A stretch of 64,000 nucleotides of DNA from Blastomonas sp. SL216. Lineage in GTDB: Bacteria; Pseudomonadota; Alphaproteobacteria; Sphingomonadales; Sphingomonadaceae. Positions 39,656 to 45,527 of the stretch are shown piece after piece. The stretch is from NCBI GenBank assembly GCA_026625625.1, contig CP113055.1:3083001-3147000 (forward strand). The letters are read 5' to 3'. Numbering within the stretch: position 1 is the first letter of the stretch; every line of letters starts with the position of its first letter. The position numbers and the translations under genes are program-made. The notes under the pieces were generated by a model. The model was not told where the DNA came from and did no database searches. It was given only the letters and a program-made list of their open reading frames with translations.

Positions 39656-40024
39656 TCACTCACGAAATGGCTCCCATGCTGTTTCGACCAGCGCGCGCGA
39701 AGGCGCATCGGTCGTCGGATCGGCCAGGATTGCGGCATAGCGCTCCTTCAACCCGGCGCAGCTTTCGTCCATCATCGCGTTGAGGAACTCGGCCCGCTCC
39801 GCATCATAGGGCTCTTCGCCGGCAAAATGAAGACAGGCCTGCGCGGCATGGACGAACAATCGCACGCGATAGGTCGCGCCAGGATGCTGCGGCTCCCGAT
39901 ACATGTCGTTCCAAGGACCCGATCGGGTCGGCTGCTCGACCTCGACCTTGACCTCGACTGGCTCGGCCTGAGGTGTCGCCACCAGCATCGCCGCAGCGCC
40001 GATCCATTCCAGCCACAGGGTCAT
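39656..40024 (-). CDS. Small exported protein in the Atm1 operon
   Basis: A 122-residue protein with an N-terminal hydrophobic segment (LWLEWIGAAAMLVATPQ) like a signal peptide or anchor, then a short acidic linker (VEVKVEVEQPT) and a helical domain with two cysteines (AAQACLHFAGEE and DESCAGLKERYAAI). The family is not recognised. Its ATG overlaps the stop of the ABC transporter (ATGA), and the next gene starts one base after its stop, so the three are translated together. A role linked to the exporter is inferred from this. Confidence 0.72.
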   Translation of the reverse strand: MTLWLEWIGAAAMLVATPQAEPVEVKVEVEQPTRSGPWNDMYREPQHPGATYRVRLFVHAAQACLHFAGEEPYDAERAEFLNAMMDESCAGLKERYAAILADPTTDAPSRALVETAWEPFRE

Positions 40025-41844
40025 GCCGGCACCCCTTCCTTGGCGCGCTCCTGCGCCTGACGTTCCCACATCGCAGCGTACAGGCCGCCCAGTTTCAGCA
40101 GCTCGCGGTGCGACCCCTGCTCGGCCACCTGGCCCTTGTCGAGCACGATGATGGTATCGGCATGGGTGACGGTCGACAGCCGGTGCGCGATGATCAGCGT
40201 GGTGCGCCCTTCGGCGAGCGAGCGCAGCGTGTCGAGTATCTCTGCCTCGGTGGCGCTGTCGAGCGCCGATGTCGCCTCGTCGAAAATGGTGAGCGGCGGG
40301 TTCTTCAGCAGCGTGCGCGCAATCGCGACGCGCTGCTTCTCTCCGCCCGAGAGCTTGAGGCCACGTTCGCCGACCTCGGTCTCATAGCTGCGCGGCAGCG
40401 ATTCGATGAACGTGCCGATCGCCGCGCCATGCGCCGCCCGGACGATCTCCTCCTGGCTCGCACCCTCGCGGCCATAACCGATATTATAGCCGATGGTGTC
40501 GTTGAACAGCACCGTGTCCTGCGGCACGATGCCCAGGCTGGCGCGCAGCGAGGCCTGCGTCACCCGGGCGATATCCTGTCCGCCGATCAGCACCTGCCCG
40601 CCTTGCGGATCGTAGAAGCGGAACAACAGCCGCGCGATCGTCGATTTGCCCGCGCCCGACGGGCCGACCAGCGCCAGTGTCTGGCCCGGCTCGACCCTGA
40701 AGCTCAGCTTGTGCAGGATCTGCCGGTCGGGATCATAGCCGAAATCGACATTGCGGAACTCGACCGACGGCTGACGAATGTCGAGCTCCGGGGCGCCGGG
40801 GATGTCGACGATCTCTGCCGGGGTATCGATCAGGTCGAACATCGCGGCCATGTCGACCAGCCCCTGGCGGATGGTGCGATAGACCATGCCGAGCAGGTCG
40901 AGCGGGCGGAACAGCTGCATCAGCAGCGTGTTGACCAGCACCAGATCGCCGACGGTGAACTGGCCCCGGCTCCACCCCCAGATGGTATAGGCCATCGCGC
41001 CTGCCATCATCAGATTGGTGATCAGCGACTGGCCGACATTGAGCAGCGCCAGCGAGTTTTCGGACTTCACCGCCGCATTGGCATAGGTGCGCGCGGCATC
41101 GCCATAGCGCTTGGCCTCGCGCGCTTCGGCGGTGAAATATTTGACCGTCTCGTAATTCAGCAACGAATCGACCGCGCGGGCGAGCTGCTTGCCGTCGAGT
41201 GTGTTCATCGTCTCGCGCAGATGGTTGCGCCAGTCGGTCACCGCTCGGGTAAAGGCGATGTAGATCGCCACCATCGCCACCGTCGCCACCACCAGCCCGA
41301 AGCCGAAATTGATCCAGAAGATCACCAGCACCGCCACCAGCTCCAGCACCGTGGGCGCGATGTTGAACAGCAGGAAATAGAGCATCACGTCGATGCTCTT
41401 GGTACCGCGCTCGATCACCTTGGTGACCTCGCCGGTGCGGCGCGCCAGGTGGAAGCGCAGCGACAGCCGGTGCAGCTGGACGAAGACATTTTCCGCCAGC
41501 GTCCGCGTTGCTTCCTGGCCGACGCGTTCGAACACCACGTTGCGCAGATTGTCGAACAGCACCGATCCCAGCCGGGCTGCGCCATAGGCCAGCACCGCGA
41601 TGATCGCGGCCATTGCCATGGTCGTGCCATCGATCGTCATCCGATCGACCGCCGCCTTGTACGCGAAAGGCATGAACAGCACCGCTGCCTTGCCCAGCAG
41701 CACCATCACCATCGCCCCGCAGATGCGCAGCTTCAGATCGGGCCGTTCGGCGGGCCACAGATAGGGCAGGAATCGGCCCAGCGTCTCGCGCATGGCGGGC
41801 GTGCGCCCATTGGCGGCGGAAGACGGAGGGTAAGGGGAGTGCAT
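40021..41844 (-). CDS. Atm1-type ABC exporter (fused permease/ATPase)
   Basis: A 607-residue half-transporter. The N-terminal six-helix ABC-exporter domain is followed by an ATPase domain with Walker A LVGPSGAGKSTIAR, signature LSGGEKQRVAIART and Walker B TIFDEATSALD. TGEVTKVIERGTKSIDVMLY, LLFNIAPT and NYETVKYFTAEARE are typical of the Atm1/HMT1 group, which exports glutathione polysulfide or metal-glutathione complexes. The ATG at 41844 is preferred to a longer in-frame frame. It heads an operon with a small exported protein and a PTP/sulfurtransferase-like lipoprotein, consistent with sulfur or metal detoxification. Confidence 0.92.
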   Translation of the reverse strand: MHSPYPPSSAANGRTPAMRETLGRFLPYLWPAERPDLKLRICGAMVMVLLGKAAVLFMPFAYKAAVDRMTIDGTTMAMAAIIAVLAYGAARLGSVLFDNLRNVVFERVGQEATRTLAENVFVQLHRLSLRFHLARRTGEVTKVIERGTKSIDVMLYFLLFNIAPTVLELVAVLVIFWINFGFGLVVATVAMVAIYIAFTRAVTDWRNHLRETMNTLDGKQLARAVDSLLNYETVKYFTAEAREAKRYGDAARTYANAAVKSENSLALLNVGQSLITNLMMAGAMAYTIWGWSRGQFTVGDLVLVNTLLMQLFRPLDLLGMVYRTIRQGLVDMAAMFDLIDTPAEIVDIPGAPELDIRQPSVEFRNVDFGYDPDRQILHKLSFRVEPGQTLALVGPSGAGKSTIARLLFRFYDPQGGQVLIGGQDIARVTQASLRASLGIVPQDTVLFNDTIGYNIGYGREGASQEEIVRAAHGAAIGTFIESLPRSYETEVGERGLKLSGGEKQRVAIARTLLKNPPLTIFDEATSALDSATEAEILDTLRSLAEGRTTLIIAHRLSTVTHADTIIVLDKGQVAEQGSHRELLKLGGLYAAMWERQAQERAKEGVPA

Positions 41845-42096
41845 GGCCCTGCATCGATAGGAGTGTTCCGTCCCGGTTCCAAGCCCCTCGAAACAAAAAG
41901 CCTGTCCGGACTGATCGGCCAATGTTACCCGTAAAATTGAGTATTTACAGTGCTCCTGGCATTTTCATGTCACGTCTGATTGCAAAGTTACATTTCACTC
42001 TATATCCTTGGTGAGGCAAATGCGGACAGGATAACAGTTCCGGGCGCTTCATCCGTACTATCGACGAACAGCCAACCCCGAAGGGATTTTACCCAG

Positions 42097-43884
42097 GTGA
42101 GTGCGCAACCCGATAGAGGCGCATTGCAGGCAGAACTCGCGCTGGTGATGCAATCGCCGGAGTTCATCCGCTCACCCGTTTTGCGCAGGTTGCTCGAATA
42201 TCTGGTCGAACAGACGCTGGCCGGGAATGGCGAGCGGCTCAAGGCCTATCAGATCGCGGTGGACGGGCTGGGCCGCGACGACAGCTTCGACCCGCAAAGC
42301 GACAGCTATCCCCGCGTTCAGGTCGGGCGGCTGCGCAAGATGCTCGAACTGCATTATGCAGGGCTGTCCGCGCAGGACGCAGCGGGCCGGCACCGGATCG
42401 TGATCCCAGTCGGGCGATATAATGTCGAGCTGGTCAGCATGGCCGGGCCCGAAGCGGCAGCGCCGCCCGCCGATACAGCCGCCAGCCCGGCTGCCGGCTC
42501 CGCAGCCTCTGCCAGTGGTGGCGCGGCCCCTTCCTTGGCGCGCGACGAGCCCCTGGCCGCTCATCATGCCGGTGCAGCGCCGCCCTCGGGCATCGATCGC
42601 GGCTGGATCCTGTGGGTGGTGCGCATCCTCATTCTGCTGGCCGCGCTCTATATCGTCTGGCTGCTCGCCAAGCCCGAATCCGCCGATGAACAGGCCGCCC
42701 GGCGCGACATGCGCGCCGAGCTTTCGCATGTCAGCATTGTGACCGAACCGGCTGAGGGCAGCGACGACCTTGATACCGCCGCGCAGATTGCCGAAATGCA
42801 TCTGCAGCGCTTCGAGATGCTGGCTGTCAGCACCGGGCCGCACAAGGATGTCAGCAAGACCGATATTCCGCGCGAGTATCTGCTGGTCGTGCGCGGTGGC
42901 CGCCGTCGCGGTGGCGGGCCTGGCGCGCCGATCTTCCTCACGCTGCGCCACCAGGCCAGCGGCACGACCTTGTGGTCCTATGAGGTTACCCGCAACGGCA
43001 GCAGCGTTGCGGCACCCGATATCGAGCAATCCATCGGCACCGGTCTGTCGGCGGTGGCGCGCATGGGCGGCGTGATCGCCCAGCATCAGCGCAAGCTGAT
43101 CGGCACTGATCTGACGCCCGGCTATCCCTGCCTGATCGCCTATGACAGCTTCCGCCAGAGCCGCGACGCCGCGCAACGCCCGGCGCTGAAGAAATGCCTC
43201 GAAGCCTCGCTCGAGCGCTATCCCGATGAACCGCTGCTGCTGCAGGCGCTGTCGTTCCTGGAACTGACCCAGCCGCGCAAGGGCAGCCAGGTTCCCCTCC
43301 GGGCCACGCCGCGCGGACGCGAGCTGGCCGAGTCGGCGTTGCGATCGGACGGCAAATCGGCGCTGGCGCAGATCGCCGTGTCGCGTTCGGCGCTGTCGCG
43401 GGGCAATTGCCCGCGCGCGATCGCCTTTGCCCGGCGCGCGGTGGAGAGCAACCCGCTCGAACCCGATACGCTGGGCCTGGCGGGCAGCATCCTGATGTCG
43501 TGCGGCGATTATACCGGGGCAGAACCGGTGCTCGAACGTGCCAGTGCGATGAACGAGCAACCCGGCGGTTATCAGGTCGCATCGCTCGTCATCACCCGGG
43601 TTATCAACGGCAAGCGCGCCGAAGCGCTGCAACTGGCGCTGAGTGCCGACACGCCGGAACTGGAGGCGCAGCCCAATTTCCTGCTCGCCAAGGCGCTGGC
43701 GCTGGCCAGCAATGGCAAGCTGGCAGAGGGGCAGGAAAGCTGGCGCGCGCTGCAAAAGGCGGTGGGTGTTCCTGCCAGCACCCCTGCCGCCGACGTGCTG
43801 GCGCGCTTCACCATCTCGCCCTTTTTCAGCCGCCGCATGCTGGCCGAGGCTGAAGCGACAGGACTGGTCGCTCAGGCGGGCTGA
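42097..43884 (+). CDS. Putative transmembrane regulator: DNA-binding-like N-domain, one TM helix, TPR domain
   Basis: About 595 residues from a GTG at 42097 (AAGGGA upstream; start uncertain). The N-terminal domain (about 1-110) has FIRSPVLRRLLEYLVEQTLA, RLKAYQIAVDGLGRDDSF, DPQSDSYPRVQVGRLRKMLE and HRIVIPVGRYNVEL. I recognise this pattern from the start of many regulatory TPR/TolB-like proteins, where it looks like a winged-helix DNA-binding fold. A Pro/Ala-rich linker leads to one membrane helix (about 170-190, LWVVRILILLAALYIVWLLA). A C-terminal alpha-helical repeat region with TPR-like character runs from about 370 to the end. The topology is CadC/ToxR-like: cytoplasmic DNA-binding end, periplasmic sensor end. 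It lies directly upstream of four mini-peptide genes. Confidence 0.7.
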   Translation: MSAQPDRGALQAELALVMQSPEFIRSPVLRRLLEYLVEQTLAGNGERLKAYQIAVDGLGRDDSFDPQSDSYPRVQVGRLRKMLELHYAGLSAQDAAGRHRIVIPVGRYNVELVSMAGPEAAAPPADTAASPAAGSAASASGGAAPSLARDEPLAAHHAGAAPPSGIDRGWILWVVRILILLAALYIVWLLAKPESADEQAARRDMRAELSHVSIVTEPAEGSDDLDTAAQIAEMHLQRFEMLAVSTGPHKDVSKTDIPREYLLVVRGGRRRGGGPGAPIFLTLRHQASGTTLWSYEVTRNGSSVAAPDIEQSIGTGLSAVARMGGVIAQHQRKLIGTDLTPGYPCLIAYDSFRQSRDAAQRPALKKCLEASLERYPDEPLLLQALSFLELTQPRKGSQVPLRATPRGRELAESALRSDGKSALAQIAVSRSALSRGNCPRAIAFARRAVESNPLEPDTLGLAGSILMSCGDYTGAEPVLERASAMNEQPGGYQVASLVITRVINGKRAEALQLALSADTPELEAQPNFLLAKALALASNGKLAEGQESWRALQKAVGVPASTPAADVLARFTISPFFSRRMLAEAEATGLVAQAG

Positions 43885-43922
43885 CCGCCTGTCCTATCCC
43901 ACAGACGTTCGATCCTGATGAA

Positions 43923-43937
43923 TGGGAAATTTTCCCA
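43923..43937. promoter_or_regulatory. Palindrome upstream of the sigma-54-type promoter (possible activator site)
   Basis: TGGGAAA-T-TTTCCCA is a 7-bp-arm perfect inverted repeat. It is centred about 85 bases before the -24 element, that is near -110 from the predicted start, the usual place for a bacterial enhancer-binding protein. It is the only clear palindrome in the gap between the regulator-like gene and the promoter. Confidence 0.5.
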
Positions 43938-44012
43938 ATTGTCAGCATTCGTTCATCTGCGGCGTAGGGCTGAAATCAACTATCTCTCTGTAAAGCAGCG
44001 ATAATCTCAAAC

Positions 44013-44028
44013 TGGCACGGCCTGTGCA
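44013..44028 (+). promoter_or_regulatory. Sigma-54 (RpoN) -24/-12 type promoter
   Basis: TGGCACGGCCTGTGCA matches the consensus TGGCACR-N4-TTGCW at all but one position (G for the first T of TTGC). The invariant GG (44014-44015) and GC (44026-44027) are exactly 10 bases apart. Transcription should begin near 44038-44040, about 53 bases before the first mini-gene. It is the best promoter match in this region and would need an enhancer-binding activator not encoded in the window. Confidence 0.72.
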
Positions 44029-44042
44029 GTGTATCTGGCATC

Positions 44043-44061
44043 TCCGGACAAACGGTCCGGA
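44043..44061 (+). promoter_or_regulatory. 5' stem-loop of the mini-peptide transcript
   Basis: TCCGGAC and GTCCGGA form a 7-bp perfect stem with loop AAACG just after the predicted transcription start. It may stabilise the message 5' end or bind a regulator. The first ribosome-binding site (AAAGGA, 44079-44084) is outside the stem. Confidence 0.55.
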
Positions 44062-44091
44062 CCCAAGACAAACACTCGAAAGGACAATGCC

Positions 44092-44199
44092 ATGACCCTC
44101 TTCTCGAACGTCCAGAGCCAGATCGTTGCTGCCGCTCTCGCCATCCTGACCTCCAGCGTCTTCCTGGCTGCCAGCGTCGGCCCCGGCACGATCGTCTGA
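44092..44199 (+). CDS. Mini-protein 1 of a tandem paralogous set (35 aa)
   Basis: A 35-residue peptide beginning MTLFSNVQSQIVAAALAILT and ending SVGPGTIV. A perfect AAAGGA lies 7 bases before the ATG. It has no charged side chain at all; after a short polar start (Ser, Asn, Gln) it is one hydrophobic stretch of about 20 residues that could span a membrane. The core A-L-A-x2-T-S-x2-F-L-A-A-S and tail PG-T-I-V recur in the next three genes. No family known to me matches. It could be a membrane micro-protein, a secreted peptide or a toxin; the function is open. It is the first gene behind the sigma-54-type promoter. Confidence 0.75.
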   Translation: MTLFSNVQSQIVAAALAILTSSVFLAASVGPGTIV

Positions 44200-44242
44200 T
44201 CATCCTCCCACCATTCAACCCATATTCGAAAGGACCACCATC

Positions 44243-44326
44243 ATGAACATTCTCGCAACCGCTCTCGCCACCGTCTGCTCGGTCATCCTGATCGCCACCA
44301 GCGTCGGCCCCGGCATGATCGTCTGA
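44243..44326 (+). CDS. Mini-protein 2 of the tandem set (27 aa)
   Basis: A 27-residue peptide, MNILATALATVCSVILIATS then VGPGMIV. GAAAGGACC stands 7-8 bases before the ATG, in a spacer (43 bases) resembling those before the next two genes. No charged residue is present. It lacks the polar N-terminal extension of mini-protein 1 and carries the only Cys of the set. The codons GTC TGA TCA at the end are shared with mini-proteins 1 and 3. Real translation is supported by the ribosome-binding site and by paralogy, not by length. Confidence 0.7.
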   Translation: MNILATALATVCSVILIATSVGPGMIV

Positions 44327-44371
44327 TCACCACCCCCTGACCTCAGCCCATTTCGAACAAGGATCAAGACC

Positions 44372-44455
44372 ATGAACTTCGCAGCTTCCGCCCTCGCCGC
44401 CATCTCGTCGGCCATCTTCATTGCTGCCAGCGTTCTGCCCGGCGTCATCGTCTGA
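44372..44455 (+). CDS. Mini-protein 3 of the tandem set (27 aa)
   Basis: A 27-residue peptide, MNFAASALAAISSAIFIAAS then VLPGVIV. It aligns without gaps to mini-protein 2 and to the last 27 residues of mini-protein 1. AAGGA lies 8 bases before the ATG, after a spacer of 45 bases that again contains CCCATTTCGAA. No charged residue. The many synonymous differences between copies with a conserved hydrophobic core point to selection on the protein rather than on the DNA repeat. Confidence 0.7.
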   Translation: MNFAASALAAISSAIFIAASVLPGVIV

Positions 44456-44495
44456 TCACGTTTCCCGCAACCCATCGAACTCAAGGACCGAAACA

Positions 44496-44597
44496 ATGTC
44501 TCTCCAGCTTCCCAGCCAGATCGGTGCCGCAGCGCTTGCGATGCTGACCTCGGCGCTGTTCCTCGCCGCGAGCATCGCCCCCGGCGCGATCATCTGA
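44496..44597 (+). CDS. Mini-protein 4 of the tandem set (33 aa)
   Basis: A 33-residue peptide, MSLQLPSQIGAAALAMLTSA then LFLAASIAPGAII. It resembles mini-protein 1 most closely: both have a Ser-Gln-Ile polar start (SQI) and the LTS-x-x-FLAAS core. AAGGA lies about 8 bases before the ATG. The gene ends with TGA, and the convergent FAD-oxidoreductase stop begins on the next base, so the set ends abruptly without room for a terminator; a short CGCAGC/GCTGCG stem lies just inside the opposing gene. Confidence 0.72.
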   Translation: MSLQLPSQIGAAALAMLTSALFLAASIAPGAII

Positions 44598-45527
44598 TTA
44601 TCGCAGCATCGCCGCTGCGAGCGCCCGGCCCGAGGCCCAGGCGCTCTCGATCCGGGGACCGATGAGCCAGTCGCCGCTCACCCCCAGCCTCGATCCTTCA
44701 TCCCACAGCATCGTCCGCCCCGCCGCGCCCGACAGCGCGTAACGCCAGCGATGCGCCTGGACGACGAGCGTCTCGGGCAGGGCCGATCCGGTCGCGTGGG
44801 CCAGTTCGGCCAGCAGCGCCGCGATCACCGCATCGGCTTCCTCTTCCAGATGCGTGGCCGACCATTGCGGCGAGCCTTGCACCACCCAGCATTCCGGGCC
44901 GCTCCGCCCTGGCTTGGCGCTGTTGCGCGCCGCCCAGCCGATTGCGCCAGCCTGGCGCAGGCAGTCGTCCGCGAAATCCACCCGTTCGGCAAAGGCCGCC
45001 ATCACCGTCCAGCATGGCTGCGACACGGTTGCCTCGGCCAGCGCCGCCCAGTCGGGCGCATGGGGTCCCAGCAACGGCGCGACCTGTTCGGCCGGAACCG
45101 CGACGATCACCGCGTCGCAATCCTGCTCACCTTCGGCATGGCCGAGCCGCCAGGTCTCGCCGATGCGCTCGATCCGTTCGATCCGGCAGTTCCAGCGGAC
45201 ATCATGATCTGCCGCCTCTGCCTTGATGATCGCGTTCATCCCCGGCGCGCCGACCCAGGCGTTCTCGCCCGCCGCTTCCCACCGGGCTGCGACGCCTGCC
45301 GCTTCCCAGCGGGCCACGGCATCGGCAAAGCCCGGATCGCGCACGGTGAAATATTGGGCCCCATGGTCGAAAAACGCCATGCCCTGCGGCGTTTCGACCC
45401 GGCGCGTCGACATGCGCCCGCCCGGACCGCGCGCCTTGTCGAACAGGCAGACGCTGTGCCCCGCATCGGCCAGCACGCGCGCTGCGGTCAGCCCGGCCAG
45501 GCCCGCTCCGATGATCCCGATCTTCAT
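44598..45527 (-). CDS. FAD-dependent amine-oxidase-like protein (renalase type)
   Basis: A 309-residue flavoprotein. The dinucleotide motif IGIIGAGLAGLTAARVLADA is followed by FDKARGPGGRMSTRR and FDHGAQYFTVRDPGF, a pattern characteristic of renalase-like amine oxidases/dehydrogenases. The C-terminus GLAVSGDWLIG-like GVSGDWLIGPRIESAW completes the FAD-binding fold. The substrate is unknown. The gene follows metW after 4 bases and is probably part of the metX-metW transcript; its end abuts the mini-peptide cluster tail to tail. Confidence 0.83.
   Translation of the reverse strand: MKIGIIGAGLAGLTAARVLADAGHSVCLFDKARGPGGRMSTRRVETPQGMAFFDHGAQYFTVRDPGFADAVARWEAAGVAARWEAAGENAWVGAPGMNAIIKAEAADHDVRWNCRIERIERIGETWRLGHAEGEQDCDAVIVAVPAEQVAPLLGPHAPDWAALAEATVSQPCWTVMAAFAERVDFADDCLRQAGAIGWAARNSAKPGRSGPECWVVQGSPQWSATHLEEEADAVIAALLAELAHATGSALPETLVVQAHRWRYALSGAAGRTMLWDEGSRLGVSGDWLIGPRIESAWASGRALAAAMLR

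Follow-up and report, generated by a model that had tools for sequence, protein, structure and literature searches.

A tandem array of four hydrophobic micropeptide genes in Blastomonas, probably an orphan member of the phage shock (Psp) regulon

In E. coli, PspA releases PspF upon membrane damage, and the manner in which the Psp response protects a damaged membrane is still debated. PspD and PspB are small membrane-associated components of the response, and PspG is taken to be present in single copy. Tandem tiny hydrophobic peptides are also known as the Ldr/Ibs type I toxins. Production of E. coli YohP (27 residues) dissipates the proton motive force and raises PspA and PspC, according to part of its published account (PMC12719787), and passages of a further paper place a hypothetical gene, ZMO1062, within the Zymomonas mobilis psp cluster (PMC3495753).

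We analysed a 64,000-nucleotide stretch of Blastomonas sp. SL216 (the window; contig CP113055.1 of GCA_026625625.1, the genome being G000 below) that contains four short head-to-tail frames separated by spacers of 43, 45 and 40 bases (Table 1). The first-pass annotation, made from the sequence alone, had recognised frames of 35, 27, 27 and 33 codons with ribosome-binding sites, and this is borne out: an AGGA/AAGG-type Shine-Dalgarno sequence precedes each frame, and the four-peptide alignment has 11 invariant columns, with identities to peptide 1 of 56–64%. D, E, K, R and H are absent from all four window peptides (GRAVY 1.40–1.90), which therefore carry no positive-inside signal for topology. 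The description of the peptides as uncharged thus holds for the window and is not absolute, since in three species (G001, G004 and G006) the fourth peptide is 37 residues long with one Glu. AlphaFold2 models peptide 1 as a single helix (residues 2–29; mean pLDDT 78.6).

The peptides belong to no named family, as had been supposed: none of the four matched any Pfam or NCBIfam family, or any phage or defence family of PHROGs or PADLOC, at E ≤ 1. A PDB sequence search with a 40-row alignment returned chance matches only (best E 0.18), an Rfam search of the window gave no family, and a search of plasmid records with one peptide found none. The array is preceded by a TPR-repeat gene (41980–43884, +) and followed by an amine-oxidase-like gene (44598–45527, −). 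The TPR-repeat gene, whose N-terminal region we take, as an impression, to resemble a DNA-binding regulator, also adjoins the array by alignment in the seven other resolved Blastomonas genomes.

Table 1. Features of the array and its control region (window coordinates).
Feature	Position	Strand	Basis and remarks
Module (enhancer, promoter, leader, peptides 1–3)	43910..44457	+	blastn; recurs at G000:C1:1412744-1413291, 97.8% identical
Predicted PspF enhancer site (UAS), palindrome GAATGGGAAATTTTCCCAATTG	43920..43941	+	93 bases upstream of the −24 box; 19.2 bits
σ54 (−24/−12) promoter TGGCACGGCCTGTGCA	44013..44028	+	11/11 consensus positions
Hairpin near predicted mRNA 5' end (TCCGGAC/GTCCGGA)	44043..44061	+	Pairing and covariation
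Micropeptide 1, 35 aa	44092..44199	+	ORF and alignment; AlphaFold2
Micropeptide 2, 27 aa, most conserved (pN/pS 0.34)	44243..44326	+	ORF, alignment, pN/pS
Micropeptide 3, 27 aa	44372..44455	+	ORF, alignment, pN/pS
Micropeptide 4, 33 aa	44496..44597	+	ORF, alignment, pN/pS

The array is present in eight of the nine Blastomonas genomes searched (the window's own and seven others). At the main locus, each of the four frames is intact in 8/8 resolved assemblies, and the frameshifts or internal stops that would have spoken against the genes were seen in none of these eight. Values of pN/pS for slots 1–4 are 0.64, 0.34, 0.47 and 0.43 (28, 28, 28 and 11 pairs; slot 4 from equal-length pairs only, with G001 left out), in agreement with the earlier proposal of selection on real peptides, with weak codon-level constraint in slot 1. 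Slots 2 and 3 are 27 residues long in all 11 copies read. Frame openness alone is little proof, since the +2 frame is mostly open as well (a stop in 2 of 31 peptides, against 31 of 31 for the +1 frame); it is the codon-level constraint and the conservation of length that speak against a function of the array as RNA only.

The ninth genome, G008, does not represent a loss of the array. Two of its contigs stop inside peptide 1 and two start inside the end of peptide 4 (C3, C5, C12 and C21 are the contigs at the break points), which points to an assembly break and to an array at each of two loci, the middle being unread. Near-identical micropeptide arrays thus seem to break draft assemblies, and their copy number is possibly undercounted in draft genomes.

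A second copy of the module, with nearly the same boundaries, occurs within the same genome in G000 (97.8% identity, 548 bp), G007 (96.8%, 554 bp) and G005 (91.3%, 551 bp). The window module is only 77–78% identical to the second copies of G007 and G005, and in a tree the array copies cluster by genome with support of 97–100. The second loci have in common a flank with a lexA-like and photolyase-like side (read from ORFs). As they can be read, the Blastomonas arrays are orphans that lack pspC, and four species carry them at two loci. On the simplest reading the duplicate is old and gene conversion has apparently kept its copies alike, a possible alternative being separate insertions at a single site.

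All 11 arrays read are preceded by a −24/−12 promoter, scored at 11 positions against what we take to be the σ54 consensus, and by a conserved leader. The exact pattern TGGCACG-N5-TGCA occurs at seven sites in the window genome, compared with two for a reversed control pattern. Four of the seven lie at psp or micropeptide genes: the two arrays, the psp operon (618939) and a third micropeptide locus (2568286). A scan of 43850–44700 on both strands for the strict σ70-type consensus gave no match (~0.1 expected by chance), and no intrinsic terminators were found around the array. In nine sequences, 95% of the cells of the leader hairpin are paired and one pair is changed on both sides, so that covariation lends it weak support; the hairpin may add mRNA stability.

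The window genome encodes PspF (489 bits; cut-off 443.55), PspA and PspC above the NCBIfam cut-offs, PspB above the Pfam cut-off, and rpoN. Its psp operon, divergent from PspF, comprises PspA, PspB and PspC and a short hydrophobic head ORF. At the third micropeptide locus a single 42-residue homologue is followed by a 62-residue protein with a PspC domain, which scores 65.5 bits in Pfam (cut-off 25) and has no match in NCBIfam at 1e-10. The array, the pspF/pspABC operon and this micropeptide-PspC operon are all preceded by an enhancer and σ54 promoter pair at the same spacing. Beyond its pspC, the psp operon of the window genome continues with four small ORFs with membrane and coiled-coil segments (L066:3611-5129; G000:C1:615610-617128) which, as an impression from sequence, resemble PspB duplicates; passages of PMC11237479 note PspB duplication in other operons.

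To define the enhancer we built a matrix by Gibbs search on 35 promoters, none from Blastomonas; the set includes L092, which lies before a micropeptide-pspA operon, and L085, downstream of which we recognised no psp gene or peptide. The resulting motif, with consensus AGTTGGTGAAAATTCCCAACAT, lies 90–94 bases upstream of the −24 box in 35/35 training promoters. Since the sampler forces one site on every sequence, the evidence resides in the fixed spacing and in the scores of held-out promoters. Held-out matches, all 91–94 bases upstream, were obtained for 11/11 Blastomonas array promoters (eight species; 18.5–23.6 bits), for all four psp operons tested (three Blastomonas, one uncultured Sphingomonas; 15.7–18.3 bits) and for the four Blastomonas micropeptide-pspC promoters (17.7–20.3 bits). 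The best of 1694 window control 150-mers reached 11.6 bits and the best of 10,800 shuffles 17.7 bits, the latter exceeding the scores of the psp operon L120 (15.7 bits) and of L222, a micropeptide-pspC promoter (17.66 bits). The fit is not universal: the psp-operon promoters of G017 and G098, two of the five genomes with a head micropeptide, fit the matrix poorly. Among the matches listed from a scan with the promoter pattern (described below), the psp-operon promoters L124, L167 and L176 have the site 82 bases upstream, and the score of L168 is 5.7 bits.

The matrix also finds its way to E. coli. Over the 47,920 positions scored in two E. coli K-12 stretches of 12 kb each, the pspF–pspA palindrome came first, its two orientations giving the two best scores; the second pspA site scored 7.4 bits and pspG 4.9 bits (rank 26). 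Passages of PMC3709507 report a pair of PspF sites at pspA and a single one at pspG, and from their position the bases matched by the matrix would be these sites. The agreement suggests that the E. coli type of PspF site has been kept across classes.

PspF is not the only σ54 activator of the window genome: PrsR and NtrX score above their cut-offs, an NtrC-like protein just under, and there are three more. The PrsR-type PEP-CTERM response regulator, encoded at G000:C1:3460990 (L072:4496-5902), is above its NCBIfam cut-off, so the genome has several σ54 activators besides PspF. Control of the array by another of them is disfavoured, since the matrix marks the pspF-psp promoter and gives no enhancer match at the three other exact σ54-like sites of the genome, one of which is G000:C1:2644419-2644434 (L053). 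A PspF-like enhancer appears common to the array and the psp operon; control by PspF is well supported, with binding itself predicted.

The first-pass annotation had also proposed a search of sphingomonad genomes for copies and neighbours, and this search uncovered a wider family, often beside pspC. With a 16-row alignment, peptides were detected in 70 of 149 genomes of the taxonomic family and in 49 of its 96 genera (E ≤ 0.01). At least 10 of the 11 promoter positions are matched at 29 of the 30 best loci, compared with 0/90 control segments; five of the 30 (L218, L219, L220, L224 and L246) were first found via the promoter pattern, and without them the count is 24/25. Downstream of the peptide, pspC is recognised by regular expression at 25 of the 30 best loci and by eye at three more (L224, L231, L247), with none at L234 and L239. 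Among 20 weaker loci, which include two likely false hits (L287 in G075 and L292 in G108), the promoter is present in 18, the enhancer (≥10 bits, 88–96 bases) in 14, being missing at that threshold and place in six, and pspC by pattern in 13. Altogether, 47/50 homologous loci have the σ54 promoter and 38/50 have pspC downstream by regular expression. Tandem pairs of peptides occur at nine of the 30 best loci and triplets in G143 and Aurantiacibacter marinus, and five genomes have a homologue as the first gene of the psp operon, ahead of pspA and divergent from pspF.

Scanning named genomes with the promoter pattern yielded at least 118 loci, some from genomes already counted. Among the matches listed are 26 Sphingomonadales loci, of which 23 lead into a micropeptide, two into pspA with no peptide seen, and one (L085) into neither. 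Nine of these 26 were training loci; with training loci removed, the enhancer is found, among the matches listed, at 12 of 16 testable Sphingomonadales loci (of the 17 remaining) versus one of 88 testable others. The peptide also follows its presumed regulator: PspF is present in 139 of the 149 family genomes (137 above the cut-off and two truncated at contig ends), and the peptide is detected in none of the 10 PspF-less genomes versus 70/149 overall (p = 0.0013; 0.0017 once the two false hits are removed). The p-value ignores genome kinship, and one of the PspF-less assemblies has a completeness of only 67%.

No credible member from beyond the family emerged at E ≤ 0.001 when the order (118 genomes, many of them from that family) and the class (115 genomes) were searched. 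The sole order hit beyond it lies inside a 299-residue frame, and of two class hits one lies inside a 553-residue frame and one in a frame with stops. Six weak matches from the first 40-genome search, L023 from the same family and L016–L018, L021 and L022 from the order, were inspected and are not homologues (L024–L034 lay outside that inspection).

Intact conserved genes, a σ54 promoter, an enhancer-like site common to the array and the psp operon, and homologues in operons with pspC or pspA can be read directly from the DNA. PspF binding, induction by stress, membrane insertion and an effector role are what we infer beyond them. We consider it probable that the array is an orphan operon of the Psp regulon, encoding PspF/σ54-induced inner-membrane micropeptides that act as effectors. 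Upon damage to the inner membrane, PspA would be expected to release PspF, which would bind the palindrome at 43920–43941 and activate σ54 RNA polymerase at 44013–44028. Translation of a single mRNA would then yield four peptides, each a single helix, which would enter the inner membrane and serve there as effectors of the response, like E. coli PspG, with or beside PspC. Since the Blastomonas arrays lack pspC, partnership with PspC is suggested by the other loci.

The position of the homologues, in an operon with pspC or as the first gene ahead of pspA, would also suit peptides that regulate the response by binding PspC or a PspA/B/C complex, setting its threshold or switching it off, the arrays without pspC then providing feedback. 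The C-terminal tail, with I, L, M, V or F in penultimate and A, V or I in last place in 40/40 aligned peptides, may be a recognition end, which would suit a regulator, although the choice of the 40 could explain part of its conservation. The same kind of end is found in 22 of 23 peptides among the matches listed by promoter pattern alone (the exception is L166; several are also among the 40). We regard a regulatory role as unlikely compared with the effector role proposed above.

Their similar size and single hydrophobic helix would also allow the peptides to lower the proton motive force and lead to dormancy, as is reported for YohP, with Psp control forming a feed-forward switch. Membership in a protective regulon beside pspC argues for a protective role, and we hold this alternative to be distinctly improbable. 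The first-pass annotation had offered secreted peptides or signals alongside membrane-stress micro-proteins. Secreted signals or antimicrobial peptides would fit several similar hydrophobic peptides in tandem and an ABC transporter gene (40021–41922, opposite strand, ~2 kb upstream) that stays near the array in other Blastomonas; the partner genes of the homologues are pspC or pspA, which leaves membrane stress standing among the roles offered and makes secretion very hard to credit.

A more far-reaching form of the effector proposal is speculative, and we put it forward as rather doubtful. Sphingomonad phage shock would work via dedicated transmembrane micropeptides, the first product of most PspF-controlled operons, which would partner PspC by the conserved hydrophobic tail, its last residue A, V or I, and would seal damaged membrane or make it stiffer; the gene-converted Blastomonas arrays would amplify the dose.

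Missing from the first-pass annotation are the σ54 promoter, the enhancer, the two further loci of this genome, the wide family and the phage shock link. The Psp regulon itself is known; nothing that we found describes the peptide family or the orphan arrays. Our search of the open literature, with subscription papers and preprints outside its scope, gave no description of such peptides; the passages of PMC11237479 make no mention of them, and a search of PMC9239133 by term returned no passage. The peptides that head many sphingomonad Psp operons are candidate effectors or PspC partners, few enough to be tested, and the enhancer matrix is a route to mapping PspF regulons in sphingomonads. Genes of 27–45 residues that are otherwise unannotated here gain a likely function from shared control sequences.

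Among known small membrane proteins, PspB is a separate gene in the window genome, and the four peptides match no Pfam or NCBIfam model. The array differs from Ldr/Ibs in its σ54 control and in the pspC and pspA partners of its homologues; a simple strict-consensus scan showed no antisense promoter. Gene numbering suggests that ZMO1062 (PMC3495753, in part) stands immediately ahead of pspA, where sphingomonad psp operons have their head micropeptide, and we liken the two by position alone. YohP, at 27 residues as long as array peptides 2 and 3, is linked to stress and membrane inserted, according to passages of PMC12719787; the likeness is one of size and helix, and its regulation, in the same passages, differs from that of the array. 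E. coli PspG is, as is predicted for the array products, a small inner-membrane protein with its own PspF/σ54 promoter apart from the main psp operon, as described in parts of PMC2763126 and PMC3709507. At 80 residues with two predicted helices (PMC2763126, in part), it is set apart by description from peptides of 27–35 residues with one helix, encoded four in a row.
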